Below, in pieces: positions 1,732 to 54,378 of a stretch of DNA of 64,000 bases; within the stretch, counting starts at the first letter, position 1; every line of letters starts with the position of its first letter. The DNA lies in contig OZ023205.1 in NCBI GenBank assembly GCA_963995525.1, positions 46,739,748 through 46,803,747 of the forward strand, written 5' to 3'. The position numbers and the translations under genes were made by a program. The notes beneath the pieces were generated by a model, which ran no database searches, had not been told where the DNA came from, and worked only from the letters and a program-made list of their open reading frames with translations. This DNA is from Escarpia spicata (taxonomy: Eukaryota; Annelida; Polychaeta; Sabellida; Siboglinidae).

Positions 1732-2712
1732 TTAGACAATGTCTCTGAATCGAATCGGCGGACGCACTGTTCTGTTAGACCGCCGCACGACCAAGTCTTC
1801 CACACGATCGTCGTTCCTGTCGCCGTTTGCTGTGCCGACGACGTCGGTGGTCGGTTCACGACGATCCGTCTCGTCCTCATAGAAAGGTCGTAGTCTGTCC
1901 ACTGAGACAGTATCCTCGCGATTCTCCATCTGCAGACGGAAGCACTTGCCCCAGCGGCGCAAAACCCGAAATGGGCCCGTGTACTTCGGAATGAGTGACG
2001 GTTGCACCTTGTCTGCGTGCACTAATACTCGCGTCGCCGTCCACAGATCATGTGAGCGACCTCGCCGTTTTCCATGCCACGGATTTTCGTTGAATGTCTG
2101 AGCCGCCATAGCCGATGACAACTCTTTGCCGAACGAGGAGGTGTCGTCGATACTAGCTCGCTGTACAACCAGCTGGCCTGGTAGTGCAGGTTGCTGACCA
2201 GTGACTAGGATGGACGGAGAAACACCAGTGTCGTGGTTAGCAGCCGCTCTCAATCCAAGCATCACCCACGGGAGTTCTGCTAGCCAATTCGTTCGTCCGA
2301 GAAGACGGGCGCGAAGAGAGTTCTTCAAACAACGATGCATACGTTCAATTTTCCCATTGTGCTGGGGATGGTAACTTGTAGTTGGGTCTCGTGCAATTCC
2401 CATCAGGCTGCAAACCTCCAACCACAAGTCTGACACTAACTGGGACCCGCGGTCGGATGTGATGACATCTGGCACGCCCCACCTGGAGAGCCACTCACGC
2501 ACTAGCACCGTTGCACATGCTTTAGCGTTTGCTGCATCACCGTGCATCGTCTTGGGGTAAGCCTCTGGCCAGCCTGTCCATCTGTCGATGATAGTAAGCA
2601 AAGTGTTCTTGCCTTCACACGCTGGGTTTAGTGGACCAACTATATCGATGTGAATATGGCTGAATCGTTTAGTAGGCGCAGGCAATCGTTCCAGTGGCAT
2701 TTTCGTATGCAC
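1732..2712 (-). pseudogene. Integrase catalytic core and C-terminus (Ty3-type)
   Basis: This DDE integrase core shows HIDIVGPL (first Asp), VITSDRGSQL (second Asp) and HPQHNGKIERMH (catalytic Glu), in the usual spacing. A basic C-terminal part follows with RRWGKCFRLQ and a tail near FYEDE. It inserts the retrotransposon cDNA. It is separated from the upstream zinc-binding part (2728-3324) by a single in-frame TAG at 2725-2727. The three catalytic residues are present, but the missing upstream pol domains make the element non-autonomous. Confidence 0.85.
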
Positions 2713-2727
2713 GTGAATCTTGGCTTT

Positions 2728-3324
2728 CTAGCAAGATTCACACGATTTCGTCCATTTCGCGACATCCCTGCTGATACCTTGCCACCAGTAGGAACGCTTG
2801 ATGAGGATCAGTCCGGCCTTTAAACCTGGGTGTGCGAGACGAAGGAGATTGTCAAACACAATGCGCTGTAGCGTGGTCGGAACGAGAATGCGCGCGGGCG
2901 TAGCGCTGATGTCCGCCCACACACTAGTGCCGTCCTCACATTTGACCAAGGCTGGTCTGAACCTGGATGCCGAAGAACGATGATGAGCAATCCAGTTCTG
3001 CAATGGCTGATCGCGTTCTTGTAAAGACCCGATATCTGAAGGTGAAGGCAAGGCGACGAGTTGTGCTGGTGGTGGTGTGAAAATCGCACAACACGCTTGC
3101 ACTGACGCAGTACGGTTATCAGCGTCTGAGAACTCGTGACGAGTGGAGGGTGAAGACGAAGTTGACACCTCTGATGAAGCCGGTGTTGTCACGCAGTCTG
3201 CCAATGACGTGTTGGCAACATTGAGTGACGGCGTTGCTGGAACAAATACCGGAGCCCGTAGCTGCTTCCAATGCATGTCTCGCTGATGTTTGAGATGCTG
3301 TACGAACATCTGATCAACGAGCAC
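2728..3324 (-). pseudogene. Integrase zinc-binding domain with RNase H/integrase linker
   Basis: The C-terminal third has an HHCC-type signature: LRLAHPGLK, then SYWW, then KSCESC just before the stop. This is the integrase N-terminal zinc finger that follows RNase H in Ty3 elements. The first half is a Ser/Pro/Thr-rich linker with no recognisable motif. It reads in the same frame as the integrase core downstream apart from the TAG at 2725-2727. Confidence 0.75.
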
Positions 3325-3416
3325 ATCTTCCTATATCGCATGACGTGATCCTTCTGTCGGTAAGGTATCTGCATGGCACAGATCATCCTGCTGCGACGAC
3401 CAGATGCCGATGGCGT

Positions 3417-13621: not shown

Positions 13622-15412
13622 CTGGGAGACAACAGGAAGGACAGCTCTATCAATGGCAGCAAGACAATCAGTGTGATCCAGAATTTGATTTTAAAATAGA
13701 CAGAAATGAAACAAGTTGTCTTTTTATTCGGTTTAGTAATAAATGAAAAACATATGGTAATTAAAATGGTTTTACAACAAATGACAAACATAATTAAAAT
13801 GTCTTTATTAGTATTTGTTTGTTGCTTATTTAAATATGTATTCAGTTGACAAAATCACAACTCCGAAATCACAGCACTGGAATAAGTATATAACATGAAA
13901 TGTGTACAGAAATCAAATAAAGATTTATAAATGATAAAAACCGGCCTTTTGGGATGTTGTACACCAAAAGATAAAAAACACCCTGAAAAGCTATGAATTA
14001 AACCCTAACCAAATATTTTAATTCAAAAATGTTCACATAAAAACCTGGCCAGGGACAACATTGCCAACATTTTGAGGGCAAAATTGTTTTTATTTCGCAT
14101 GACTCTTTGTAAAATGAACAAGAACAAAATTGTTGATTTGTCCACCACCAAAATTGTGTATTTGAGAAGTGTCCTAAGTGACCTGAATATTATTAGGGTC
14201 ATTACGGAATAATTTACTCCCCCATGACAAGGCACCAGGGGAACTGAAGAAGGAATTTGAGTTTTAGTGTCTACTTAGCATTATTAGACATGTGTTTCCA
14301 ATGTCCTCCCCTTATGCAAGTGCTAGGATGGTGGCAATTAAGATGTGCTGAAATGATTGAAACACTGACTCACTGAGTGGACTTGGTGACTGCTGATTAC
14401 CAAGAAGAGGCATAATCTTAAGCCATGGCTGGTAGCCTTGTACTGTAGGCCTGTAGCTATAGAGCACAGACCACAATAGTATCAGTGCTAACATTTTTGT
14501 TTTATTATAAGGAGACTGGGCCATCAAAAATGCTGAAACGTCCTTTCAGTCTCAGCCACTGCAATAATTTCATTGATTATGCTGGACAAGTTTAGTTTAA
14601 ATTGTATCTCTCTAGTGTCTTTTAATCATGCTTACCCTAAAAACCGGCAGTCTTCACCCAATAATAATATGCCCAATATTATTGTGTTACCACCAAATAC
14701 TTACACACCACTAAATGCATACAGACTGCTTCATGTTTGACTCTTTTAATCATGCTTACCCTCAAAATTGGCAGTTTTCACCCAATAGTAATATGCCCAA
14801 TATTATTACTTTTTGGAATGCTACAACCAAGCATCTACACACCGTGAAATGCTATCATGGAATTCACACTGCCTGGGTTAGCGCTAGACCTAAATTCTCT
14901 TGGGCAAATTTGGCTAAAAGGAGTCATTTTGTTTAACTAAATAAAATATTTGTTAACCAATTGTTTTAAATATGAATTGTGATCTATCCCCACGACTGAA
15001 ATTAAAGATAAAGTTGCGCCACCTACCAGATTTTCTGGTGGAACTAACGTATACATGTAAAGCGAGTGAATTTCTTGTATATTTTGATCGATAAGACAGT
15101 ACATTTATTTTTTAAATCACGTGACCAGTGTATATGTGTACAGTAGGTAAAGTAGATATATGATGTGAAGTTTGATGACTATAGGTGACCGTTTTCATGT
15201 TTTTTTGGAGGTGCAGGTCTAAACTGCAAAACTTAAACTTTCAGTTTTAAAGTACAACTTGTTTCTGATTTTCTTCCGACCGTGCATGTATTTCGACTCC
15301 GGCCGGCTTGACTGTGATATGTCACATGACAGATTTGTGTTAAATGGTTTAAGGGATATTTGTGTTATCTTTTAACAATAATTTGCCTATGCATTTAAGG
15401 ATTTTCTTTAAA
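13622..15412. other. Plexin intron left of the TTAA transposon
   Basis: No gene is seen. A short diverged direct repeat at 14610-14700 and 14735-14825 ('aatcatgcttaccct' and 'caatattatt' in both) is the only structure noted. Open frames here lack family features. Confidence 0.45.
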
Positions 15413-15416
15413 TTAA

Positions 15417-15521
15417 AGGAAAACAAAAGGCAACGTTTTGGTGTTGAGCATCCAAAAGAGTTAATACAAACTAACAATTTCCAACTACAATCAAATTTAT
15501 AATGTCAGCGGTTTACCATGA
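15417..15521 (+). repeat. Left terminal inverted repeat of the TTAA transposon
   Basis: This matches the reverse complement of 20884-20984 over about 100 bases with scattered differences; the shared blocks include AAAAGAGTTA and GGTTTAC. The outer end directly abuts TTAA. Confidence 0.85.
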
Positions 15522-15709
15522 ACAATTTTTGAACACACAATTACCGAATTTCTATGGACTACGCCATTGTTAGAAGAAAATGACATCACACTGTCGTAAC
15601 TCACTTCGTAAATTTTCTGCGTACTGTTTGTTCCCAACTCCGTTAGGTGGCGCTATGGTAAGTGTACCAATTAAACTATGTGCGCATGCGCTGTGACTGT
15701 GTAAATAAG

Positions 15710-18059
15710 ATGGCTTTCCAATTCTTCGGAAGACAACGAAAACCAAATCGATTTCGAAGCAGCTGGTTACCAGGTTTGAACTACAAAAACAAGGGCCTGT
15801 GTTGGAAGATAGGGCAGAGGCGCGTGCCAGTGGGCACGAACAGGAAGGCCCATGGGCAGTGGAAATGTTGAGGCACATACCATGCCGAGATGACATTAAC
15901 TGGTGTCGGTGTGGAAAATGCTGCAGCGATCTCCTTGTTCAGGAACAAGAACTGAATATGTCTGTTGCCAGGAGGCGGTTGCTACTTGACAGCAACGCTG
16001 TTGGTGAAGGTAATTATTAATCTGTTTAGCTTATTGTTTAAATAACCGATGAGCCTAAGTTCCGGGCTGCGTATGAACAGCGAGAGATGATCGCTCGGGC
16101 AGGGACACGTCACTTGTCTTACATTTGGGATTGGTTGACGTTTAACTTAGACGTTAGATCTCACTCTCAGTGCCACTGAACTCAGTGTTTGAACTTTGAC
16201 ATGTCCATTTTCGAATACCACCCATGGCTGTACCCTCACTTTTTAAAAGAAATGTAGCTGAATGGTTCCATGATTCATGTGATCCAAAATTGTACAGGGC
16301 AGAGCTATGATAGAAAATAAGCAGGAATTAACTCCCCTTTTTCTATCCCTGTCGACACTCTTCACATTCGCAGTAATGGCTATGCATGTATGAACAATAT
16401 GTGGCAGTACTACTTTTTAAACACATGGCAGGTAGATAGATTATTTTTAACTTTATGCATATTGCAATTTTTCCGCCCAAAGTTTACATTGGCTCTTATG
16501 AATAAAATATACCTTGAAAATTTTTTAGCCAGAGCCCCCATTTGTTTTGGTGACAAAGAAAATGACCACCGTTTTGTGCAAATATTGACACATTTCAAAA
16601 CGGCCTTCCTTAATCTGCATGATATTTCTATAGATCCAGGTATAATACTGGGATGAATACAGTTAGAGGATCGTGATGCATTCTTTGTGAAATTTGTTCA
16701 GAATAATAATCCATGTTTGCTTAACATTCGTGTAAAACTATTATTTAAATGCTTAATTCTTTGTTACAGGTGGACTGCTGTGCATTACAAACAGCAGGGG
16801 ATTTAGAATTCTTTGTTTGGAGCAGGTGATGCTGCAGAATGGGAATTATGCCGTCCAACAAACAAGTACGTATATATGTGCATGCATTGTTACAAGACCA
16901 GTGAAATGTGTTGTTAAATATTTATTGAAATGTATTAATAATGAACACAATACAACATCATAGTAGCACTAGCAATAAAAATATCTATAGATAATTTTAT
17001 CAGCAATCTCATGCCTGATGCCCAAATTATTAACAATCTTCCAGGGAAATTACTTAGTGGACTTACCATACGTCATCTACCATAGACATGCTAAGCAAAT
17101 TCACATAATTGAACCGACTACCATTTGAACCTAACATCAAGAAAGATCATGTATTCAAAACTAACAAGTATGTCGCACTAATCCATGATGTAAACAATAA
17201 CGGAATAAAATCAGAATTAACATGCATTGAATTAGGTTGCAGAGGCTGTGTATCTGATCCCAACAAATCTAAGACTGACAACCTCCTTAAAATCTCTTGG
17301 AATAAAACCACCAACAAAACAACTAATTCAATCGTATGCTTGTCTAAACTAGCCCTGCTAACGCCATTCACCCTTTCTAAATGTAAAGACGAACCACACT
17401 GGTTTGACCCAAGACTAATTTAAATATGATGACCATCACCCTAATATGACAATTACAAAATAAAATTCCGCTCAACAGCAAGTAATCCTACATAAATGTG
17501 TTCATTTTCAATATGACTTACTTTAACCGTTAGTCATTATTTACCTTAGCCGGCTACAATATACTACTATACATAGTTATTTACTGTATTCACACATGTA
17601 CTTGGGTTATCGTTTCACACTTTATTGTATTCTACTGTATGAATAAAGTGATACTCTCTCACTACAGATCAAATTATAATGGTTCCACTTAAGTTATCAT
17701 AATGTATAGATACAATGTTTGTTGCACCGTCATAATTTGTTCTGTAGTGCAAAATTATCAATATTTGCCTTATTCCAGATGAACACGTTTAAAGGTAAAC
17801 AATTGATATAACGGAATGGTGTCGTTATAGAACCAATTTTTATGTCATTTATTTACAATGTCAGATGTTTGTTTGAGCCTAATTTATTTCAGGTCTCTCA
17901 GGTGGGCTGCATACAGAGTTTACCTGGTGGATCCATGGCAAACTGGGATGAATGGTACAGAGAGTTCTACCAGCATGCGCCAGCCATGGAATAAGATCAA
18001 GGTTCCCTGCCCCCGATGGGGGACAACACGAGGGATACCACGCTGGACTTGAAAACTAA
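15710..18059 (+). pseudogene. P2X7-ballast-like (P2RX7_C type) protein, broken, three exons
   Basis: The parts resemble the Cys-rich cytoplasmic domain of P2X7 receptors (Pfam P2RX7_C), which binds zinc. Exon A (15710-16010) has an acidic start (SSEDNENQIDFEAAGYQ), then NWCRCGKC, the first Cys cluster. Exon B (about 16770-16861) has GLLCITNSRGFRILCLEQ, like the family's Cys-Ile-Thr ... Gly-Phe ... Cys-Leu stretch. Exon C (about 17893-18059) has RWAAYR, then WWIHGKLG, then IRSRFPAPDGGQHEGYHAG. Breaks: a frameshift just after the start, one near 15775, one near 17915, and an in-frame TGA near 17948. No P2X channel part is present. It is the plus-strand partner gene of the transposon. The DNA-level role of this family is unknown. 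Confidence 0.65.
17109..17423 (+). pseudogene. Retroelement C-terminal fragment (uncertain)
   Basis: The 104-residue frame contains KYVALIHDVN, CIELGCRGCV and ISWNKTTNK. It resembles the tail that follows reverse transcriptase in some animal retroelements ('E-V-G-x-R-G-F'). It lies in the intron between exons B and C of the ballast-like gene. Followed by AATAAA-like signals near 17640. The assignment is tentative. Confidence 0.35.
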
Positions 18060-18111
18060 ACTAGACAATGTACATGTGACCTATGAAGGTGTAGGTTGAT
18101 CGTGGCAGTAT

Positions 18112-20653
18112 TTACTGTTTCTTTACAAATTGACTGACTCTTGCTGCCAGCAGATCCTCCTTCTCTGGTTTTGGGACATCTGCCCCAGTGACTGATCGCA
18201 TGCAGTGTGATATTTCTTTATAAACACATCTGTCACTCGATCCGTGAGCATTTGTAGGTGGGTACGTGGGTTCACCTGCTGTGGTCTGTTATGCAGCACC
18301 CATTGCTTGCGTCTTTTAGACCACATGACACCAGTCTCAACAGGTTTGTCTGGGCTGGGACGTGGTCGGTAGTTCCACTCCAGAGCAGACAGCATCAATC
18401 TAGCTTTCATTCCAACAGTGAAGAATAGTGCATGCAGTATTCTAATAAAATATCTGCAAACAACTGGTGTAACACACCAGTCTATATGTTGTTAGTAAGC
18501 TGCTGTTATTTACCTTATGACTGTAGCATTCAGTGAACTTTAAAGTGCTTTTCCTGTGTAAAGTGTTGGTTGTTTTAGTAACAATACAATGGTCAATCAT
18601 GGTAATCATAATGGTACATTAGTAAACCGATACTGATCCTTACAAATAAGGCATTCCATCATCAAATTCCTTCACATAATTTATTATAACTTGTTTTTTC
18701 TTCTTAATTTCTATATCTACTGTATATACAGTCACTGTATTTGGTCATCAAGTTGGTCATCAGGAACTTTGACTATGTAACATTTTTGGTCCCATACATA
18801 AGTCGGTGGTCCACATATTAACATATAACATGTAAACAGCATTTACATTATCAGTTTGGGAAGTCTGAATAAACACATTTACTGATAAGGTAGTAGTCAT
18901 GCTGGCTGGTACTTTTGAGTAGCCATCCTGAAAAAAACGAGTTGGATGCCTATGAAATGCAGTAATTTTGAAAACTTATTATAATGTTAGTTATGCATAG
19001 GAGCTGATTTAGTGTATTTGGGATTCAAGTCGGTAACTGGAATTCACCTTACACTACGTGGGTCATGGTCCCTACTCATCATCTACTGATTGAAAATCTA
19101 AAGGTTACTTGTTGCTTTGGACATGCCCCAGGTATAAAATGAATACATATCAAGTTTGGTACTTACTCCAGCAACTGTGCGTCACCGTTGCATGTTGCAC
19201 AACACCACCACAGATGGTTTGATACATTCTGTATCCAATGAAGGAGGTCCTCGCATCCCTTGCCACGGGCCTTCACAGTAAACTTGCGGCTGATGCCTTT
19301 CCCCATGTGCCACATCATGTTGGTGATCGAGCTGAAATGCAAATTACAATTATTTATATTTTTGATCCAAATTCAAGATATTTTCACAACAGCTGTTACC
19401 TGTTTTTGCTGTTAGTGTGCAAAAAAAACAAGTTAGTGAAGATGTGTGCACATGGTATATTATTAAAGATATATAATATATGATTATTGAGTGATGCCAG
19501 TATTTTTATAATACAAACATGGTGTATCTGGTGAGCTCATTGATAACTATATTTGGATCACATAATTACTCCCAGAGATATCCTTCCAAATGCAGAATTT
19601 AAATGTTTTTTTAGAAAATGGCCATCAAATGTGGCATAATGGATAACAATTACTTGATACTGACACCCTTATTCCATGGATAAGAGTGGTTTAAATGTAT
19701 GTAATTGTTGTAAAATGATATCTATTCACAGTAAACATAATAAGCTATCATAATCTGGCATAAAAAAAACATTTTAGTATTTTTTTCTATAAAAAAAACA
19801 CTTTCACCTGGGTTGTATCCCCTTAACTAAAATTGAGTAACATTATGTAATTTTACTAAATACAAATGACGCCATTTTAAACATTTTACAATAGAGTAAA
19901 TAGTGATATTCTTCACCACATAAACAGTAGTCACACATAATTATATACAAAGTCCAATTATATAACATCATGACATAAATAATAGGCCAAACATTTCGAT
20001 ATATGACAATGTCTAATGCAATATTATTGAATGCAGAACATATTTTTGTTCATTTAACACAAAATACAGTAAGTTTTGCAAACGACAATCATTCCAGCCC
20101 ATGTTAATCCGTTACTGTAATATCGCTCACGCAACTTAATTGCCGTTAACTTTTGCTATTCGGCTATCTTCTAAAGGCTAAAGTCTAAACTCTTTGTGGT
20201 GCAATATAGCATATTCTGGTACTGTTCTGGCTTGCCTCCAGCATATCTTGCATCTCAAATGTCAACAGATTTTAATTGGATACCAAGTAACTCAGTACTA
20301 ACCTTCTTGCGATTGATTTCTCGGCGGCGGCGCGTTTGACCGAAAATATGCGTCCCTTCGACGGCTGAGGTCCGTTACTAAATATCGTAGGCACTGCACC
20401 TGGCTTCAAACATCGACGTCGGCGATGTTTTGTCGGATCTTGTGTCATTAACTGATGATATAGATTTCCTTCGAAGCACGTTTCTTCAAAATGATCTGAA
20501 CATAGTGCGTTGTATTTTGAAGGCTTCCAACCAGCTCGTTCACAGTTGTGAATCCACTATTTCACTTCTGGTTGTTTCAAAGGGAAACAAAAAAGACAGC
20601 TCATTATCCTTCGCTGTACTATTGTTACAACCGTATGTAGAGCAGTGTGGCAT
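18112..20653 (-). pseudogene. THAP-domain transposase (Kolobok-like), broken
   Basis: Exon 1 (20303-20653) starts MPHCSTYGCNNST, then LSFLFPFE, then GWKPSKYNALCSDHFEE and LKPGAVPTIF: a complete C2CH THAP zinc finger, interrupted by a frameshift and a TAG near 20560. The donor is gttagt. Exon 2 (19167-19331, ttcag to gtaagt) reads MMWHMGKGI, GCEDLLHWIQNVSNHLWWCC and GDAQLLE, typical of THAP transposases with a 'WH..KG' motif; the Asp usual before Trp-His is Met here. Exon 3 (from about 18441) reads VGMKARLMLSALEWNYR and ends with a frameshift near 18195 before the TAA at 18112-18114. Middle exons were not found. It should bind the termini and cut at TTAA. Confidence 0.7.
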
Positions 20654-20883
20654 ATTGCAAGTCACGTTTTCACTGTAAGCTAAACTTATACTAATACAAC
20701 GAACCGCATCCGATGAACATGAACCAACCACGCGAACTACACAAGACAGTGTGTCGTACACGGCAAAAATAATGCTGCTCATTTATTGGTTGCTTTCGGC
20801 CAAATGAACGCATCATCAGTAAGATGGCAGTCTACATGTTATCGCAGATTTCGTTAGAATCTTCCACTTTAAGACTACATTCC

Positions 20884-20984
20884 GAGTAAACCACTGAACA
20901 GAAAATTTTGTTTGTAGATGCAAATGGTTAGATTGTGCTAACTCTTTTAGGTGCTAAACACCACAACTTTGCCTTTTGTTTCCT
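20884..20984 (-). repeat. Right terminal inverted repeat of the TTAA transposon
   Basis: This is the reverse complement partner of 15417-15521. It ends in ...TTTCCT immediately before TTAA at 20985-20988. Confidence 0.85.
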
Positions 20985-21519
20985 TTAAATACAAACTTAC
21001 AATCGTTGTGTCTTGTGCAGACGCCATGCTAGCCTTAGGAAGTTTGGTTGTGCGTGGCCAAATTTGTGATAAGGATTCTCATTGGCTAGAACCCCGCGGC
21101 TATTGACCAACAACAGTTCAGTTAACATAAATTGTCATAAAAGCGTCCTTCACAGCTGAACGATCAGGCGAATGCAAGAAATTGAAGAACTATTTGAAAT
21201 CAGTGACATTTAATCAAATAAAGATATAAAACCAGCATTTCGCATCAGTATTTCTTTCATGTTTCGCAAATTTGGCGATCACGTGCATTTTTCTTTTTGC
21301 CAAACAGTACAAAAATTAGTGCATGGTGAATGGCAAAGCCGTAGCGCGAACGCTGACTGCCAAACATCTGACATTTCATGCAATCCAACCAAGCTGGCTG
21401 AATACAGACTTTACTTCTTGGCACTTATGTCACTAACATCAGATAGATTGAGTATTTGTAGGCACTACATTTCCAGAAGTATAATTCTGGACTGACCCCT
21501 GTTATCATCAATCACTCAC

Positions 21520-21693: not shown

Positions 21694-22859
21694 CTGAAAA
21701 ACAATGTACCAAGACATAATAATAAAAGTAAAAATTTAATTCCAAACAAACAAACTAGTCATTTCACAAGAGTACAAATGTGAATATATAATGATTAAGA
21801 AAATGACAGCATTTTGTGTTTTCAACAGTAAAAGTCTCATTTATAAATTTATATTCACAGTAGCCAAGGTATATTTATGAAACTGAAATAGATGTTTCAC
21901 AAGTTTCATTCACTGGATGTATTTAATATTTTAAAGTTGATTTAAAATAGCATTTGTTAAAATCAGTATGCATATTCAAGACTTTTAAAAACTTAGAGAA
22001 ATTAGACCTAGATACATTTGTGACATTATTCATTTCAAATGTAATTCTTCCACATAAAACACAGATTGCAATCGTAGTAAAGGCCATTAGTAATGTTACA
22101 GCTTGCATATTAACACATCTGCTGTGATATTGATACCATCAGCATTTTGTGTTTAATGTAATTTGTTGGTGGGACAAGTAGATTTCTGTTCAGACAAGAA
22201 AACATTCATGAATTTGAACTTGTCCTACAGGACAAGTGGTTTCTGGGAATTAATGTCGAGCCCTGACATCTGAAATAAGAAAGGTGAAATAAAATGATGT
22301 CAAGACCAACTGTTTCAAGAGAAAAAAGTGGCATTACATTAAACAAATTATATCCTAGATTTTCTATCCAATAATATATGTTATCATGGAGTTTATCAAA
22401 CATGCAGAAAATGGAAAGTAATAGTTATACTAAAAATATTCACATTTCAACAGCTCTACAATGAACTAGCATGACCACGATATTTCAAACATTTAAAGGT
22501 CCTCAATTTGGGTTTTTCTTTGCTCGTCTTGTTTTAAAACTATTTCATGTAAAATTGAATCCATCTACTGGTAGTATTGGCTAAAACATGCTAGTATAGT
22601 AGCTTGTTTGCACAAATATGTTATAATATAATTTTGGTGAAATCATCAAACAAAGTATGGAACTATGTTTATCTTGATCTGCAAAAAAATTGGCGATTGC
22701 GGGAAAAGTACTCCAGCTCTATATTTATTATATAACTTATGGCTATTTACACTTCAGCAAGTTTCCCGATTTAACCACCAAAGTCAACTTTGCAACAGCA
22801 GCACATCATGAACATATATAAATATGTTTTTCAAAAAGGAAAAGTAATATGGTACATAC
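21694..22859. other. Plexin intron between exons 2 and 3, nothing recognised
   Basis: A+T-rich intron of 1166 bp. Short frames inside lack family features. Confidence 0.5.
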
Positions 22860-24015
22860 TGCTTTTGTACAATCCTGAGGCGACACGAGATGAGCAGGTC
22901 CAGTCGTCCCCTCACCACGGAAACATTCTCTAATATTCCGCATAAACACAACTTCCACATGCCCCATCGAGTAAGCACAGATAGCAGCATCCTTAGTCGT
23001 CTTTGCCGTGTTTCCCTCCGCTGTAGAGAACGACACAAATAACGCATCCCCAGCATCGTTGAATCGGGGAAATCGCTGATTTGGGCGGGCAAGATGAGCG
23101 GCCGTCGCAAGGGTGTATGTGCGATTGTCCACCGAGCATTCAAGCGGAACTTCGATGTACGATTGGAAGTGATCATCCCCGTGACATACGCGCACCAGCC
23201 ATGTCGAGTACATATGCAGATCATTGACAAGTTTTGGTCGTACGACGACAAAATAGGTGAACGTGGCATGCGAGAATCCAGCCTTGAAGTAGACCTTGAA
23301 TTTGTTGGTAAGATACCGTGGTAGGAGGCCAATGAATGAGGACCCTGTTAAGCTGGTGATGTACTTTAATGTGTTCACGTCACGGCTTGAAACCATTGGG
23401 ACTTTGTTATTGAATCTGGCAAGACCTCTAGTACTGTGCGTGGCTCCGATGTACAGCCTCGCAGGGCGTGAACCCCCCGCATCAGTGTCACCACCATTGA
23501 TCACCATGACAACCGGTTCATTTTTGTCATTCGAAACAACGTGTGCATACACTGTCTCCACGTGTGTCAGATTGTACAGGCTGAATTTCTCGCAGTAGCC
23601 ATAGTAGAGGGTACTGCAAGCAATCAGGAGACCTTGCCAAGGCACGATCACGAGTGCCTGGTTTATGCTGTCCTCAGCGATGCGACTGTAGTTGACGCTG
23701 CATGCCTGCTTTGGATTCGGCTGACAGTTGAGATTGTCTGGATGTGGTCCAGTCTCAACGTGAGCCAACAGCTCCAGTGATGCCGACAGCTTGTAAAGGA
23801 CATTGACGCCGCCGACATAGACATCACCTGTACTGCCGTCAATGGTGACATGTCGGAATATTGTGTCTGACACCGATGAGGGGCTATCAAAGTGGTGCAC
23901 AACCTGTGTCTGGCCTTGACCAGTCAGCATTGCCACAGCCAACCATAATGACCACAGCGACAGTGACATAGTCTCTCATTTAGTTCTGTAGCCGGTTCCT
24001 AAACCTGTCAAGCAT
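22860..24015 (-). CDS. Plexin exon 2: start codon, signal peptide and most of the Sema domain
   Basis: Plexins are single-pass receptors for semaphorins that steer axons and cell movement through an intracellular GAP domain. This exon begins after cttgcag (24016-24017). The start ATG is at 23967-23969 and 370 codons run to the gtatgt donor at 22859. Residues 1-20 (MSLSLWSLWLAVAMLTG...) are a signal peptide. The rest is the Sema propeller: TIDGSTGDVYVGGVNVLYKL, CQPNPKQACSVNYSRI, LYYGYCEKFSLYNLTHV, PARLYIGATH, VCHGDDHFQSYIEVPLEC and later ICAYSM. One large exon carrying most of Sema is usual for A-type plexin genes, but the subtype is not proven. Two upstream reading frames lie in the leader (see regulatory entry). 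Confidence 0.95.
23887..24015 (-). promoter_or_regulatory. Two upstream ORFs in the plexin leader
   Basis: The exon begins exactly at an ATG (24013-24015) that opens an 11-codon frame ending TAA at 23980-23982. The next bases are ATG (23977-23979), same frame, opening a 30-codon frame that overlaps the plexin start by about 80 bases in another frame. Whether they act depends on the upstream exon and use of this acceptor. Confidence 0.6.
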
Positions 24016-27390: not shown

Positions 27391-27686
27391 AGGTCGGCGC
27401 CGGCCTCCTTCGCGCGTCGTTTCATCGACTGTTTCAGGTCCCCGCCGGCGACGACGTCCCGCGCCACGCGCACGCCCGTCTTGAGCGCTCGTTTCCCCAA
27501 CGCCATGGCGCCTCTCTTGATAAGCGGCATGGCGCTTCGAAACAGGCTCCCGAACAGATTACCCAAGCCGTGTCCCCGCTGCCCCTGGCCGCCGACGAAG
27601 ACCGGTAGATGGCCACCGACCTGTCGAACGTAGTAGTCCTCGTACACGCTGCGGCCGGCGGTTCTCGTCACTTTCCTCCGCCTCAA
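27339..27686 (-). CDS. Small basic glycine-rich Polinton protein (virion core/pX-like)
   Basis: The 115-codon frame shows YYVRQVGGHLPVFVGG, then GHGLGNLFGSLFRSAMPLIK and ALKTGVRVARDVVAGGDLKQ. This layout (Gly-rich turn, amphipathic helix with LFRSAMPLI, basic tail) recurs in Polintons next to the capsid genes and recalls small adenovirus virion proteins. The first codon in the open frame is TTG overlapping the stop of the capsid gene (27683-27686), and no ATG lies upstream in frame, so the start has probably been lost. The C-terminal codons come from the adjoining minisatellite. Confidence 0.6.
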   Translation of the reverse strand: MRRRKVTRTAGRSVYEDYYVRQVGGHLPVFVGGQGQRGHGLGNLFGSLFRSAMPLIKRGAMALGKRALKTGVRVARDVVAGGDLKQSMKRRAKEAGADLLTPTAPLPETSNCTST

Positions 27687-28531
27687 AACAGTTTAGATTT
27701 ACAGCGTCTGATGTGAAGCGTCGCCACGAGTTTCCCCTGCTCGAATGGTATTGGTTGACCGATGTCGTCTCTTATATCTATCTCGATCGAGTCGAATTGT
27801 CGCCGCAGGAGCGGCACGTATTGGACGCGGTCGAAGACCTCCGAAATAATGCTCCCGTTCATCCCGTAGGCGGGTATGGATCGAAGGAGCGGGGCGAATA
27901 CATCACCGACGATGCGCGGTTCCACGAGGTCCGTATACACGTACAGGGTGTCGACTCCCCCTTGCATGTCCACCGTATACCGACCCTTGTGCTCGTAGGT
28001 ATACGCGACGGAGGTGGTCTCGTCCCGGACGACATCCGCCGAGAGAGGGCTCGCGATGATGCCCGAGTCGAAGCCCAGTACGGTCTTCAGACGGCTCCCG
28101 TGGGGAATATGAAATTCGACACCCGGTGATAGGCGCAACGTCATCCGGTTGAAGACGGGGCAGTACTCCAGTCGGGCCTTGACGGTGTCGGTGTTCAGTT
28201 TCATCAGCGCCTCGTTGATTTTATGCATCAACTCGTAAGCGCTATTGTAAAAGCCGTGCGGGATGTTGCCTTGCCGGTGAATCGAAGTGCCGTCGGCGCT
28301 GCGGTACGTTCCGTATTCGCCCGTCGCACAAGACAGGTAGAAGTACGCGTCCTTCTCTCTCACGTTGTACCACGTATGCGGATACTGTTGCGTCACCAGA
28401 CCGCATTCCCACTCCCCCGACAGGTCGATGCGTTGCGGCAGGTTCGTAGTGTAGTGAGTCAACGTGTTTTTGGGGTGCGCCTTCATAGACGCGTTGCTCG
28501 GCAGGGTCAGGTAAAAGTTAGTCGCCGCCAT
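27683..28531 (-). CDS. Polinton minor capsid (penton-type, single jelly-roll) protein
   Basis: 282 residues, ATG start at 28529-28531, intact. The N-terminus MAATNFYLTLPSNASMKAHP with TLTHYTTNLP, then LSGEWECGLVTQQYPHTWYN, is the recurrent opening of the Polinton minor capsid protein, which forms the pentameric vertices of the predicted particle. It overlaps the membrane-protein gene upstream by 14 bases and the basic gene downstream by 4. It is among the best preserved genes of the element, although no major capsid partner is in the window. Confidence 0.75.
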   Translation of the reverse strand: MAATNFYLTLPSNASMKAHPKNTLTHYTTNLPQRIDLSGEWECGLVTQQYPHTWYNVREKDAYFYLSCATGEYGTYRSADGTSIHRQGNIPHGFYNSAYELMHKINEALMKLNTDTVKARLEYCPVFNRMTLRLSPGVEFHIPHGSRLKTVLGFDSGIIASPLSADVVRDETTSVAYTYEHKGRYTVDMQGGVDTLYVYTDLVEPRIVGDVFAPLLRSIPAYGMNGSIISEVFDRVQYVPLLRRQFDSIEIDIRDDIGQPIPFEQGKLVATLHIRRCKSKLF

Positions 28532-28850
28532 CCCCCCTCCGCCTCATAGACGAACTCGGGAGTAGGTAACCGAGACAGCTGCTCAACAGGGCCGTCCACA
28601 GGTTGGAGTCGCCCTGGCCCCGCGTTAGATTGTATATACTGACGACGATAACCGTGTACAGGACGACGATCTGACACAGGAAGATGATCTCGGCTTTAGG
28701 ACATTCGTTCCCGCAGAACCGCCATGGAACGTGTTCGCGGTCGGAGTGGGTCGTAGACTCGGTAGCGTCGACGTAGTCTGCGGGCGTGCCGCGCTCGCAG
28801 TCGTTTGAGGCGGAGTCGTCGGCTTGGACCTCCGTAATCGCGTCGGGCAT
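28518..28850 (-). CDS. Polinton two-helix membrane protein
   Basis: From the first ATG (28848-28850) the protein has 110 residues. A polar acidic first half (ADDSASNDCERG) is followed by a Cys pair (CGNECPKAEI), a hydrophobic helix IIFLCQIVVLYTVIVVSIYN, and a second shorter one LWTALLSSCLGYLLP. Proteins with this ending are common in Polintons beside the capsid genes; the role is unknown, perhaps envelopment or membrane escape. A longer non-ATG extension to 28913 is open. Confidence 0.6.
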   Translation of the reverse strand: MPDAITEVQADDSASNDCERGTPADYVDATESTTHSDREHVPWRFCGNECPKAEIIFLCQIVVLYTVIVVSIYNLTRGQGDSNLWTALLSSCLGYLLPSSSMRRRGDGGD

Positions 28851-28978
28851 AGTAGCACCACCGCAGTCGGTTAATGCTGCACGCTGTAGGGTAGTCGTCG
28901 ACGGCAACGTCACGTAGTAAGCGCCAGCACATCGAGCGTCGTGTCCACATAACGACTGCCGGCCGACGTTACGGTACC

Positions 28979-30118
28979 CTACCCTTTATAGTCCACGAGG
29001 GTCTTGGCAGCGATCCAGCTGTTGAAGGAGGCCGGATAGCCGCTCCATTTAACGAGCACCTCCTCCGCCTCAGCACCCCGACGACGACGCCGTTGTAGAA
29101 CGGCCTCCACGCGATACAGTTTATCCTTCGGAACGACTAATCGTTGCAGCTCCGGCTCGTAGAAGGCGCCGTCGAGCACCGTCCCAGCGTCGTCTTTCAG
29201 GCGGTAAACGGGCGGGTCGAACGGGTGCGTTTATACGACGGTGAAGAGCTCCTCGCTCCAGTTAGCCATGTACCCTTTCTTGAAAGGCGCCTTCGCCTTA
29301 CTGATGCGTACGCGGTCTCCCTCTCGTAGTTTCGGCTTACTCCCTCCGCGACCTCGGCTGCCGTACAACCGTTGCCACACGCTCTCTTGGTTCGCGGCGT
29401 TGACGCTCGCCGGCATCCTACCAATGCTTCGGTGATAGGTGTTATTGTACGACCGCACAAAGTTCGGTAACGGCTCTACGTAGCGCAGTGTCTGATACTT
29501 CGTAAAGTACCTCCACATGCGCGTCTTTAAGGTTCGATTGAAGCGTTCGACGACACTCGCTTTAGTCTCCTCGTTATGCGTCACCAAATGGTGGACGCCG
29601 TAGTCCTTCAAAAGTTTCTGAAAGGGTCGGTTGAGAAACTCCGTCCCCTTATCGGTCTGAAGCGCGTTCGGCACACGCCGCTGCTGCTGTAGCAGGTGCT
29701 CGAAGGCCGTAACGAGCGCCGGGCCGGCTTTACTCTTCAACGGGACGCACCACGCCACCTTCGAGAAGACGTCGATGACCGTCAATAGGAACGTTACACC
29801 GTCGTTGTGCTTTTTCAGTTTAGCGACGTCGACGAGGTCGGCTTGCCACTGCTGGTTTCGACCGCCTACGATAACGCAACGTCGCTTGAAACGTCGTTTC
29901 ACCGGCTTGTGTAGCGTGTAAGTATCCTGCGCCGCTAGCCACTGCTTCACGGCCGGTTTGCCTACCGTCGACGCCACCGCCCGATGCAAGGCGTCGACAC
30001 CGCCGTAACTGCCCGCCTGCTTCGGGTTGAAATAGGCGCGCTTCAGGCGGGTGTCGTCTCGTTGTCGAGTACGCCGCTTTCGTTGCGTACCACGAGGCCG
30101 CCGGGGCACCATGACCAC
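28979..30118 (-). pseudogene. Polinton integrase with C-terminal chromodomain, one in-frame stop
   Basis: One frame spans 380 codons from ATG 30116-30118. Residues ~90-200 are the retroviral-type core: QQWQADLVDVAKL (first Asp), LLTVIDVFSKVAWC, ALQTDKGTEF (second Asp), SVVERFNRTLK (Glu). A basic segment near KPKLREGDRVRI follows. A single TAA at 29231-29233 interrupts the frame before the chromodomain, residues ~330-375, with YRVEAVLQRR, EVLVKWSGYP and FNSW. Chromodomains at this position help target integration to marked chromatin in other elements. The stop is either recent decay or allows a core-only product. Confidence 0.85.
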
Positions 30119-30216
30119 GACGACGACGACGATCGGTTTACGACGAATAATATATACACCAAGGCCGCCGCACCGACGACGAGGACGACGCCGACTACCG
30201 TCCTTCGTAGGTACAT
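30043..30216 (-). CDS. Small single-pass membrane protein of the Polinton
   Basis: 57 residues, ATG at 30214-30216, overlapping the integrase start in another frame. MYLRR is followed by a strong membrane segment (TVVGVVLVVGAAALVYILFV), then a Ser run and a polar tail ending NETTPA. No named family recognised. The size and position between conserved genes suggest a real small gene. Confidence 0.45.
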   Translation of the reverse strand: MYLRRTVVGVVLVVGAAALVYILFVVNRSSSSSWSWCPGGLVVRNESGVLDNETTPA

Positions 30217-30250
30217 TGTGAATGGGTCGGACGTCGACGTTTCAAGCTCT

Positions 30251-30985
30251 TTAATACGTCTCCTCCTCCCACTTGGGCGGTAGGTCCCAGGTACGTCGAC
30301 GACGATGATACCGGCCCCTACCGGGGGTCTTCTCCTCATCCTCCTCCTTCGGTCGTTTCGACTGCTGCTGCTGCTGCTGTATGTACGCTCGATGCCGGGC
30401 GTTACCGACGAGCTCCATGGGCACGTTCAGTCGTCTCATACCATCCCCGAACGCTTCCCATCCGACCGGCGGCACCCCCTTCTTCCTCGTCCGCATAAGA
30501 TCGTTCACGAGATCGACCATGTTACTCCCCGCGATAGGCCGACCGGCGTACACGAACTCACCGCGATCGTTCCATCGATACAACGAGTCGGTCTTCATTT
30601 TCTCGATCAGGAGACGGGCTTTTCCTCTCAGCGTTTTCGGCACGCTTTCCACGATCTCGCGCTCTATACCCTGCAGCGGTGCCTGACCGCCCGTCGGCTG
30701 AGGCGGCGGCGGCGGTACCTGGCCGCCCTCGGTCGGCACCACGGACACGCGTACCGGCTGCGCCGCTCGAATCGCCTCGATCGAGTTGTAGCGACTCAAC
30801 AGTCGATTGTACGACGCCACCTTCTCTCGTTCGGATAACTCCGACCAGTCTAGCACGTCCTTCATGTCGCTGTCCAGGCTACTCATCGCACGCGACCGGA
30901 TCGTGCTCGGCGGCTGGTCGATCAACGGCAGCAGGCTCTCCACCAACTGCGGGTCTACCAAGGCCATCTTCTTGGCGTACTGCAT
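30251..30985 (-). CDS. Conserved Polinton protein, 244 aa, function unknown
   Basis: ATG at 30983-30985, overlapping the stop of the upstream gene (TGATG). Features: MALVDPQLVESLLPLID near the start, a Pro-rich linker (QVPPPPPQPTGGQ) around residue 90, then LLIEKMKTDSLYRWNDRGEF and a conserved-looking VPMELVGNARHRAYIQ, a Gln run, and a basic tail GRYHRRRRTWDLP. Proteins with the 'LYRW ... GEF ... NVP-x-E-L-x-G-N-x-R' layout occur beside capsid genes in Polintons. No catalytic motif is visible; it may be a scaffold or virion component. Confidence 0.6.
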   Translation of the reverse strand: MQYAKKMALVDPQLVESLLPLIDQPPSTIRSRAMSSLDSDMKDVLDWSELSEREKVASYNRLLSRYNSIEAIRAAQPVRVSVVPTEGGQVPPPPPQPTGGQAPLQGIEREIVESVPKTLRGKARLLIEKMKTDSLYRWNDRGEFVYAGRPIAGSNMVDLVNDLMRTRKKGVPPVGWEAFGDGMRRLNVPMELVGNARHRAYIQQQQQQSKRPKEEDEEKTPGRGRYHRRRRTWDLPPKWEEETY

Positions 30986-31320
30986 CAGCCGATCACCTGT
31001 CTGAGCAGCGGCAGCAGGACGGTGCTCGCCAACGGCGATGGCAGCGCCGCCAGAAAGGCGCCCGAGCCCGTTTGCAAGATTTGCCGCTTCTTCTTAAGAC
31101 CCACCTTTTTGTTCACCAAACTTCGCAGATGTTTCTTGTATTTTATCAGTGTTTTTTTCTGCGCCACCGTCAATTGCACATTCCCTTTCAATAGGTTGTA
31201 CGCGCAGTCACACAGGCTACAAATGAAGTCAGAGTCCGCGTTTCTGATGATAGCCCTGCTCACCTTAGGCTGTTTATGTTTATTCAAGAGGACGTGCTTC
31301 TTGATACGCTTCAGCGTCAT
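30985..31320 (-). CDS. Conserved basic Polinton protein, 111 aa
   Basis: From ATG 31318-31320: MTLKRIKKHVLLNKHKQPKV, then FICSLCDCAYNLLKGNVQLT with a Cys pair, AQKKTLIKYKKHLRSLVNKK, and a hydrophobic end RQILQTGSGAFLAALPSPLA. The 'YNLLxGNVxLT ... LxKKRxILQSGGFL' pattern is a familiar Polinton small protein of unknown role, which I recognise only as a recurrent family. An upstream non-ATG extension to 31353 is open. Confidence 0.6.
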   Translation of the reverse strand: MTLKRIKKHVLLNKHKQPKVSRAIIRNADSDFICSLCDCAYNLLKGNVQLTVAQKKTLIKYKKHLRSLVNKKVGLKKKRQILQTGSGAFLAALPSPLASTVLLPLLRQVIG

Positions 31321-31358
31321 CCTGACGAATGAGGCCCCCCGCGTAACGCTCACCTCTT

Positions 31359-31981
31359 TTATGATCTCGTCACGTAGACGTACTGAATACGATCATCGGG
31401 AAAGATACAAGTGCGCAAGCGCATATTTTCAGCTGTTTCCTGTTTTAGATCTGCTAGTAGATACCCGTAAGGTGCTGACGTGGCATCTTTGAAGGCTTCC
31501 ATCATAAATTTAGCTCGACCCGGATACATCTGCTTCGCCAGGTGACCTACTTGGCCGGCGTCGCGTGGGCTCTTGAATAACACCATATATTGCGCGTTCA
31601 AGCTGATTGTGCGGTTTTCTTTCCCTTTCGGAAACATATTCTGCACAAGCTGTACGACGGACGCGTTGCAATGATGGCTTTTTTAGTGAACAAGGTCGTG
31701 ACCCCGCTATTGGTTTCCTCCATAAGGTCATCGAGTACTATAAGGGTCCTCGTTTTGCCGTCTAGAAGCTTCGGATCCGGTAAACCGTCTACGAATTCTA
31801 TATCGACTGACATAGAGGTGTAGGCGCTTTGCCATTGACCGTAACACCATAGAATCTTCTCCGGAGGCGGCTCTATCATAGAAGAAGCAAACTGTAGCAG
31901 GCTAGTAACGAAAGTAGTCTTACCACACCCCGTAGGGCCGGCTACTATACACGTAAAAGGGTGTTTCCACGTCCCGCTCAT
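31359..31981 (-). pseudogene. Polinton packaging ATPase, frameshifted
   Basis: This is an FtsK/HerA-type (A32-like) genome-packaging ATPase. The first frame (31598-31981) starts MSGTWKHPFTCIVAGPTGCG (Walker A GPTGCGKT) and has TLIVLDDLMEE (Walker B). The second frame (31359-31646) continues with MFPKGKENRTISLNAQYMVL, SPRDAGQVGHLAKQMYPG (a conserved Arg region) and APYGYLLADLK. The switch occurs at or just after an A6 run on the minus strand (31679-31684), consistent with loss of one base there. Motifs on both sides are otherwise well kept, so the break looks recent, or is a sequencing error or ribosomal slippage. Confidence 0.85.
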
Positions 31982-32018
31982 ATCGACGACTGGCGTGCAC
32001 GAAACGAACGATGACTTA

Positions 32019-32477
32019 TTATTCGTTTATTCTATACGCATCGCGCACCTCCATCAATAATTTACCAAGCATATTTTGACCTACTTTACCGTCTTTACCG
32101 ATACCCCAGAAGCCTTCGGGCGACGGCACGCACTCCACCAATTCGACTTTCCCGGTAGCCAATAGGAGGCCGTTCAACCTTTTTGAACCTCTGAATTTGC
32201 TCATCAGCAGCGACTTCATACACCCGACCCTAACTGCGTTCCATTCGGCGCTCGTTCTCTTCTTCACGATTCTGTAACTTCGACGTTTCGCTATATAGGC
32301 CGTCCGCGCTTCTTTGATGTACACCGCGCTTTTCTCGTCTTCATTAAACATTGCTTTTCTAAACTGGTAAGCGTGCTCGACGGATTTGAAACTTAGACCG
32401 TACGCCTTGACTCGACAAGCATAGAAATTCGATAGGTATGATGCCGAACCGCCGAACTGTATAGGAGACTCCATCAT
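32019..32477 (-). CDS. NADAR-family (YbiA-like) protein carried by the Polinton
   Basis: 152 residues, intact, ATG at 32475-32477. The pattern QFGGSASYLSNFYACRVKAY, SFKSVEHAYQFRKAM, AYIAKRR, WNAVRVGCMKSLLMSKF, LLLATGKVELVECVP, FWGIGKDGKVGQNMLG and LLMEVR is the NADAR fold (formerly DUF1768). Known members cleave N-glycosidic bonds of riboflavin intermediates or of ADP-ribosylated nucleobases, the latter reversing DarT-type DNA modification. The conserved Glu of 'SVEHAYQ' and the Trp-Gly of 'FWGIG' are present. It lies 38 bases upstream of the ATPase on the same strand, so it is part of the element. The substrate here is inferred only. Confidence 0.85.
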   Translation of the reverse strand: MMESPIQFGGSASYLSNFYACRVKAYGLSFKSVEHAYQFRKAMFNEDEKSAVYIKEARTAYIAKRRSYRIVKKRTSAEWNAVRVGCMKSLLMSKFRGSKRLNGLLLATGKVELVECVPSPEGFWGIGKDGKVGQNMLGKLLMEVRDAYRINE

Positions 32478-32539
32478 ACTGTCGACTAATGACTACCAGA
32501 CCTCGTAAATAGACCCCCCTATATATAGACTGAGGTGTA

Positions 32540-41587: not shown

Positions 41588-43460
41588 TAATAATAATAAT
41601 AAGTTAACTTCTATTGCGCCTAATTCTATTCCAGTTGTCAACAGATGGGTCAAGGCGCTAGGGAGCTATGGTGGATAAGCAAGGTTATAAAGATAATTTT
41701 TTTAAATGACGACGGAATTTTGTAATATTTTCAACTGATCTAATACTAAGAGGGAGCATATTCCAAAGATTTGGTGCAGCAACAGAAAAAGCCCTGCAGT
41801 GGTGGTACAGAGCAAGAAAAACGAGGAGATTTTGTAACTAATCTTGCTAGACAATTTTGGACTCGCTGAAGTTTGTGCTATCCTTGCTAGCGATATTATA
41901 AAGGAGGGAATTGCAATAGTTAAATCTGCTGCTAACAAGCGCTGTTGGGTTAGTTTTAGCATCAGAAGTTGACATTTACCGACGAATACGGCGAAGGTCA
42001 CGAATATGATCAAAACAGCCGTGACACATTTAAGATGTGTGTTGTCGGAAATTGAAGTTACTATCAAAGATCACTCCTAGATCCTGCACCGAGGTTGCTG
42101 GCGTGATATACTGATTCAAAATACGCGTACGGAAAAACCACCAAGTTTACTACGTTGCATTGGAGTACCAATAATGATCAATTAAGTTTTATTTGCATTT
42201 AATTTCAACTGTCAGTCATCCAGTGGAAGATATCTTGAAGGCAATCACTAGTTGGTTAAGGGAGCGATTTGTATCCGCGGTAGCCAACGAAATGTAGATC
42301 TGAGTATCAACAGCATAACGATGATGACCCAAGTTATGTCTTTGTATAACAAAGCTTAGTGGCGTTGTGTAAAGAGTAAAAAGCAAAGGCCCAAGAACAG
42401 AACCCAGGGGAACACCAAATAAAGTCGGCAGTGCAGCTAAAAAGCAGTTCCCAATCTTTATAGTTTGGTATCTATCAGTTAGATATGAAGAAAACCAGCT
42501 TAGAGCTGTGTCAGATATGCCGTACCACTTTAATAAGCGTTCAATGAGAATGTTGTGATCAGTCGTGTCAAAAGCGGCAGAGAGATCTAGTAAGGTAAGT
42601 GCAGTCATTTTACCATTATTAATGTTCAAGTTAGTGTCATTATGAACCTTCAAGAGGGCAGTCTCTGTTGAACGAAACTGCCTATATGCTGATTGTGACA
42701 CATTAGTTAAGACATTTGTGCTAATGTGAGACCTCAGACGACTTGCTACAACCTTTTCTAGTATATTGGAAATAAAGCTGAGGTTAGAAATAGGTCTATA
42801 ACTGTTTAGGTCTTGTCTAGGCAGATATGACTTCTTAAGAAGTGGTGTGACATGGATGTATTTGAAATTATCAGGAAAACAGCCAGAGCAAAATGATGCA
42901 TTTATAATATTTGTTATAGGTCCAATTAATGTATCGAGACATGCTTTTAGCAGTATTGTTGGAAATGGATCAAGTGCACAACATTTATTTGGGGAGGACA
43001 TAATTATTTTTATAACTTCGTCAACTGTTGTAGATTCAAATGATACAAATGGAGAATTTACTTGTGGAAAGTCCACACTGACATTACTTAAAGTATGACG
43101 TGGGAAAGCAGAACGAATAATACTTATTATATTCTTAAAGTGACTAGAGAACGAATCTCATAGATACTTAATTTACACATGATCAGTTAGCGATGGAGCA
43201 AGCCGTCTATGTAGACTGTTATTGATGCAGTTCCATAACTGGCGCGGGTTATCAGACTTATTTATGACCATATTTGTATAGTAATTTGATTTAGCTTTGG
43301 TCATTTGTCTATTACAGAGGTGACATTGCTTAGAATTGCGCGACCTGTCTAAAGGCGAGCGCGATTTGCGCCATAGACGCTCTAAATAACGACGACGTCT
43401 TTTATATAGTATAATTTCGGAAGTCATCCATGGAGCCGGTGTTCTGACATACATTGGGAT
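41588..43460 (-). pseudogene. LINE (CR1/Jockey-group) reverse transcriptase, 5'-truncated and broken
   Basis: On the minus strand 43173-43454 gives the pre-RT region (APWMTSEIILYKRRRRYLER), 42216-43076 the RT with NSYRPISNLSFISNILEKVV, LTLLDLSAAFDTTDHNILIE, WFSSYLTDRYQTIKIG and GVPLGSVLGPLLFTLY. The catalytic box reads YAVD instead of YADD. The C-terminal part at 41700-42070 has RRIRR, then VSSRFNYCNSLLYN and APNLWNMLPLSIRS, with stops. The 3' end (41588) finishes in a TTA-type microsatellite tail. It lies inside the tandem tail of the hAT element. Confidence 0.85.
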
Positions 43461-53270: not shown

Positions 53271-53280
53271 CACGTAGATA

Positions 53281-54378
53281 TCTGGCGACGCTCATCTGCC
53301 GTGCCACCAAGACGTTCTAGAGGCGGCTAGTTCATACTTCACGGCAGTGTTCTCATCTGGCCTTGAAGAAAGCGCGTCGGCAACAGTGCATATGACGAAA
53401 GACCCGGCAACGTTGTGCGACGTCGTCGAGTATATTTACGGTGCTGATGTGGAGATCACTGCCTCCAGTGCGGAAAGTCTGCTCAAGGCCTGTGAGTGTG
53501 AGATGATGCTATTGTCGGAAGACCTGAAGACCCGATGTGAAGACGTCTTGTCGGAACGTATTGACTTGTCTAATTGTGTTCATTTATTCCGGTTCGCTAA
53601 ACAGTATCGTCTTGAGTCGCTCTATGTAAATGCCATGCGGATGATGCTTAAAGAGTTAAACTTCATGGAGATGTCCTTCAGTGAACTAGCCATGTACATC
53701 AGCGACGTCGCGGTCAACAGAAACGCAGAGTACGGCATAAAGGACGCAGTGCATACATGGGTGGATCACGACCCGGAGAACAGACGGCTGAAACACCAAG
53801 TCCGCACCGTGTTCTCGCCGGTCACGCTGGTGCATGCACCTCCGCCAACAAATGTAGCAGTATGTCGCGACTGCTGCTGGCTGGAAGAGGACTGGGTAGA
53901 TCCGAAATAACGTACGAATGCGAAGTGCTGAGCGGCCTGCTGCTGACCGGCGGAGACTACGGACGAGGTGGCAAGTGTTGGTTGTTTGAACCGGCTACTA
54001 GAAAGTAGACGGAGACCGCGCCTCTACCCACTCCACGCTAATCCCACAGCGATGTCGCACTGCACAACGCCGTCTATGTACTGGGGGGAGCAGACGACAA
54101 CAACATGCCACTCGAAGCTGTCGAACGCTTCGACCTCAAGTAGCATCAATGGACGCTCGTGTCAGCAATGAAAAAGAAGCTCTTCCAGCCTGTGGCAACG
54201 ACATCTACGCGGCCTCAACGCAAAGGACAACGTTCACCGCAGGCTTTACGTCTACAACACAGAGTCTCCATGGCGTGTGGCGCTGTCTGGCGGATATGCC
54301 AAAGCCGTGCCGTACCGGTGCAGTGGTCACGTTGATATAGCAGCAACATTGAGGAGACTTTTTTGTGAGACAAAATAA
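53281..54378 (+). pseudogene. Kelch-like (BTB-BACK-Kelch) gene, broken
   Basis: KLHL proteins are substrate adaptors of Cullin-3 ubiquitin ligases. A BTB domain starts near 53288 (SGDAHLPCHQDVLEAASSYF; CDVVEYIYGADVEITASSAE), followed by BACK (LSNCVHLFRFAKQYRLESLY; WVDHDPENRRLKH) up to about 53800. Then two other frames give VLSGLLLTGGDYGRGGKCWL, HNAVYVLGGADDNNMPLEAV and later YVYNTESPWRVALSGGYA, i.e. Kelch repeats. At least three frameshifts or stops (including TAG at 53278-53280 in the BTB frame) make it a pseudogene. No introns are seen, so it could be a processed copy or a single-exon paralogue. Confidence 0.8.

Follow-up and report, generated by a model that had tools for sequence, protein, structure and literature searches.

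The 64,000-nucleotide stretch of Escarpia spicata DNA analysed here (the window) contains an element of 5,568 bp (15417-20984), bordered by a TTAA site on each side and carrying two convergent genes. Very probably it is the decayed remnant of an ancient cut-and-paste element from the Kolobok superfamily of DNA transposons, and the two-gene Kol0 lineage is its most likely place there. Both genes are broken, a point absent from the preliminary description of this DNA, and as far as the reading frames show neither protein can be made by this copy. Transposons of this type are said to have given the P2X7 receptor its ballast domain, and the element preserves one of them as a legible fossil.

The connection between these transposons and P2X7 has been published. 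Kojima and Bao (2022) described KolX as the second protein of Kolobok transposons of the Kol0 lineage, having the fold of the P2X7 ballast (PMC9587614). The segment of human P2X7 that KolX clearly resembles comprises residues 476-595, and the origin of P2X7 is attributed there to a P2X4-like gene fused with KolX (PMC9587614). According to the same article, earlier work on ballast proteins does not mention their Kolobok membership. Within the literature searched, KolX is named in PMC9587614 only, and PMC9319628 mentions P2X7 and Kolobok once each. The preliminary description proposed a Kolobok-type element with a ballast-like second gene and knew of no description of this link. The first part is supported by our results, but the novelty is contradicted by the 2022 article, which states the KolX-P2X7 fusion, so that the central idea was already in print. 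The gene pair reported here is one more copy of the Kol0 arrangement, and it supports the published link without being its discovery.

Boundaries of the element

Four features delimit the element:

15413..15416, no strand: left TTAA target-site duplication (read in the sequence)
15417..15516, plus strand: left terminal inverted repeat, which starts AGGAAAACAAAAGG (repeat finder, end alignment and random-pair control)
20886..20984, minus strand: right terminal inverted repeat, which finishes GTTTCCT (repeat finder and end alignment)
20985..20988, no strand: right TTAA target-site duplication (read in the sequence)

TTAA is found directly outside the left (AGGAAAAC...) and right (...GTTTCCT) ends, and the termini AG...CT have the form 5'-RR...YY-3'. 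The arms returned by the repeat finder (15407-15516 and 20886-20995) have a length of 110 nt and a complementarity of 78%. They extend outward over TTAA and a few bases of the flank, so that about 100 nt per arm belong to the element. The inverted repeats are imperfect, and near the tip a single A distinguishes the two ends in the alignment. Local alignment of the two ends gave a score of 64. Random segment pairs of the window averaged 9.6, and none of the 1,990 pairs drawn equalled the element ends, the best reaching 51. Among the 13-base words of the left end, one recurs within the window and is located in the right end. Since TTAA is common in the window (306 occurrences in 64 kb), the weight of the evidence rests on its combination with the inverted ends. 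The TTAA duplications and inverted ends of about 100 bp announced in the preliminary description are thus present. Reading frames and Pfam matches also bear out its two convergent genes within these ends, a THAP gene on the minus strand and a ballast-like gene on the plus strand. The distance between their stops, however, is 63 bp in the frames read here and not 52 bp as it had stated.

The minus-strand THAP transposase-like gene

Three pieces of the transposase-like gene are readable:

20302..20653, minus strand: N-terminal THAP domain (CxxxxC, CxxH and AVPTIF; frame change near 20555)
19163..19330, minus strand: middle piece (MMWHMGKGISRKFTVKARGKGCEDLLHWIQNVSNHLWWC)
18123..18491, minus strand: C-terminal frame (MKARLMLSALEWNY...; stop TAA at 18123-18125)

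The THAP gene claimed for this strand was confirmed by a Pfam match to the THAP domain (PF05485, E=1.2e-10, on 20272-20556) and by an exact AVPTIF box at 20380-20397. The first Cys pair of the C2CH motif lies across the frame change, in a piece that matches DUF7478 and not THAP. This match, from the start of the THAP region, was below the cut-off (E=0.003 and 0.0069 in two scans).

The middle piece (19163-19330) had no Pfam match, and the longer frame at 19163-19372 gave a weak match to zf-C2H2_6, below the cut-off. Weak matches to DUF6863 and DUF1798, both below the cut-off, were obtained for the C-terminal frame. We take the frame 18491-18123 to resemble the C-terminus of a Kolobok transposase and the frame 19330-19163 to resemble a later part of such a protein, and no Pfam family confirms either likeness. 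In the middle piece, MMWH occupies the position where we would expect a C/DxxH motif. Minus-strand frames between 19340 and 20290 reach 68 codons at most, and the catalytic core is therefore missing or beyond reading. No DDD/E core is readable in the reading frames of the element, which leaves this copy without an assignable place in the Kolobok tree.

Comparison with viral contigs gave no pattern match for the C-terminal piece and one for the middle piece, which tblastn did not confirm. An exact stretch of 27 bases from the right end had no match in these contigs.

The plus-strand ballast-like gene

The gene on the plus strand, referred to here as KolX-like, is read in three predicted exons:

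15710..16009, plus strand: first exon (ATG at 15710; end predicted from GT at 16010)
16770..16865, plus strand: second exon (LLCITNSRGFRILCLEQ...; splice sites predicted from AG and GT)
17893..18059, plus strand: last exon (acceptor predicted from AG; stop TAA at 18057-18059)

The first exon harbors an acidic stretch (15726-15773), the sequence WCRCGKC (15901-15921) and a CC pair in EYVCCQEAV (15954-15980), with three frame changes between its pieces. The last exon reads LRWAAYR, EFTWWIHGKLG and RVLPACASHGIRSRFPAPDGGQHEGY, with a single frame change and an in-frame stop. The gene, whose pieces are in changing frames, is taken as a pseudogene. An open frame of 104 codons (17109-17423, plus strand) is present inside the predicted second intron. 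It has no Pfam match and resembles a retroelement remnant.

The ballast domain has three defined cysteine clusters (PMC7016195). In the KolX-like gene the first corresponds to WCRCGKC (15901), the second to EYVCCQEAV (15954) and LLCIT (16775), which are separated by a predicted intron, and the third to LPACASHGIRSRFP (17967). All seven cysteines of these clusters are readable by eye in shifted frames. The P2X7-type clusters of the preliminary description could therefore be recovered, though across several frames.

The same description had proposed a profile search of the plus-strand exons against P2RX7_C (PF20478; cut-off 23.5 bits), and the Pfam scan, which took in 24,736 families, gave two collinear matches, both below this cut-off. 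One is on 15712-16011 (E=0.035, profile positions 30-96) and the other on 17952-18056 (E=0.038, profile positions 167-190), and in each case P2RX7_C was the sole family found. Three of the five plus-strand pieces scanned had no Pfam match, and there was none for the second exon (16770-16865) taken alone. The first exon gave in another frame a weak match to zf-RVT (E=0.076, below the cut-off). Unrelated families matched other pieces as weakly in the same scan (DUF6863, E=0.027; DUF1798, E=0.091), so that the weight lies on two pieces sharing one family in collinear order and not on either match by itself. Sequence searches of the PDB returned no match for 17952-18056. For 15712-16011 they returned no P2X7 chain and one irrelevant match (angiopoietin-related protein, E=0.49).

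Loosened versions of the first and third cysteine motifs each have a single occurrence when all six frames of the window are read, and both occurrences fall in the KolX-like gene in collinear order. The second motif (CC plus R, Q, K or E) has 41 occurrences in the window and is uninformative alone. In 150 first-order Markov resamplings of the window, the first motif occurred 0.13 times on average and the third not at all, and in no resampled window were the two found on one strand within 3 kb. This control is generous, because both motifs were loosened after inspection of the sequence.

Individual Pfam matches that are no stronger than the chance matches of other pieces, together with this post hoc choice of motifs, would suit a THAP transposon alone whose ballast likeness on the plus strand arose by chance. 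Such a coincidence is exceedingly improbable, since two separate pieces agree, in collinear order, on a single family out of 24,736, both motifs together were absent from all the resampled windows, and seven cysteines are in place.

Identity of the element and proposed mechanism

The features described for Kolobok elements include a THAP domain with C2CH, the P, W and F residues and AVPTIF, in addition to AG termini and TTAA sites (PMC6004289). RR/YY termini with TTAA are given for Kolobok in contrast to piggyBac (PMC9587614). The element found here has a TTAA duplication, RR/YY termini, inverted ends and a THAP domain with C2CH and AVPTIF. It also has the trait of the Kol0 lineage, a second gene with a P2X7-ballast domain, seen in two sub-cut-off P2RX7_C matches and seven cysteines. 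A piggyBac element was considered and rejected, given the AG...CT termini, the THAP domain and the absence of a piggyBac family from the Pfam matches of the scanned pieces.

Two other origins of the gene pair were weighed. A THAP transposon may have captured a host ballast-domain gene at this one locus, in which case the ballast gene would not be a normal part of the family. The single copy seen would agree with such an event, but Kol0 elements are described as characterized by this very pair of genes (PMC9587614), and the genes are convergent with stops 63 bp apart, which makes a local capture very unlikely. It is hardly credible that two domesticated host genes came to lie between inverted repeats by chance. 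Domestication of Xenopus Kolobok transposases and of KolX (as Nanor) is reported elsewhere, but here frame changes break both genes, a poor fit to a selected host gene, and the TTAA sites and ends match an insertion exactly. A Kolobok transposon carrying both genes is therefore the preferred reading. The TTAA sites, inverted ends, THAP domain and ballast domain occur in one bounded unit, which supports the published origin of the cytoplasmic ballast of vertebrate P2X7 from KolX of this kind.

In a living element of this kind, the THAP zinc finger of the THAP-DDE transposase would bind the inverted ends, and the transposase would excise the element and insert it at TTAA, duplicating this site. 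The cysteine-rich ballast domain of KolX would most likely belong to an accessory protein of transposition, while any specific role proposed for KolX is doubtful.

Other features of the window

Several other frames were detected in the window, among them retroelement or virus-like ones, and together they suit an animal genome. A group on the minus strand (27683-32492) comprises an integrase frame (29234-30241; Pfam rve, E=3.4e-14), a packaging-type ATPase frame (31601-32026; Adeno_IVa2, E=8.5e-06), a frame for a NADAR-domain protein (32022-32492; E=1.4e-26) and a frame of 286 codons with no Pfam match (27686-28543). This cluster resembles a Polinton/Maverick or adintovirus-like element. At 1732-3330 (minus strand), a further integrase frame (rve, E=1.1e-11 on 1735-2727) adjoins another frame, and the two are presumably a remnant of a Gypsy-type retrotransposon. 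The reverse transcriptase frame at 42216-43157 (minus strand; RVT_1, E=3.2e-21) is, we suppose, the remnant of a LINE. A frame of 389 codons (22806-23975, minus strand) gave a weak Sema match (E=0.0032, below the cut-off) and is perhaps an exon of a host plexin or semaphorin. On the plus strand, 53278-53910 encodes BTB (E=1.6e-10) and BACK (E=4.7e-09) domains and represents a Kelch-type host gene or a fragment of one.

Comparison with known systems

The closest system is the Kol0 lineage, represented by Kolobok-1_XT, which has a DDD/E transposase and KolX (PMC9587614). It shares with the Escarpia element the TTAA sites, the RR/YY termini and the presence of two proteins, the second with a ballast domain. 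It differs in that the Escarpia copy is decayed, with a catalytic core that does not allow comparison. Another TTAA-site system with a KolX-like protein is described in the same article; it lacks most of the seven cysteines, whereas all seven are readable here, and the Escarpia element has Kolobok-type termini (PMC9587614).

The XKol Kolobok elements of Xenopus have in common with this copy the AG termini, the TTAA sites and a THAP domain with C2CH and AVPTIF (PMC6004289). In Table 5 of that article, five of the ten elements start with AGGA at both ends or at the left end, and lengths range from 6.8 to 13.9 kb, against 5.6 kb for the element found here (PMC6004289).

The C-terminal ballast of P2X7 (PF20478) is the domain common to the plus-strand gene, although the channel part is absent here. 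The ballast of P2X7 is encoded by one long exon (PMC7016195), while at least three exons are predicted in the KolX-like gene.

The invertebrate ballast (ZCD) genes and Nanor share the three cysteine clusters and their order with the KolX-like gene (PMC7016195). They are described as genes, and the words "transposon" and "transposase" are absent from the main text of that article. It does present an Ixodes gene model that joins 'TAHP' (sic; taken as THAP) to a ballast domain, and it reports, for animals ranging from sponge to sea urchin, an 'ancestral synteny' in the neighbourhood of ballast genes (PMC7016195). We tentatively suggest that this synteny might, at least in part, consist of genes carried by Kol0 elements or lying beside them. 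If this is true, most stand-alone ballast genes of invertebrates are mobile KolX copies and not an old family of host genes.
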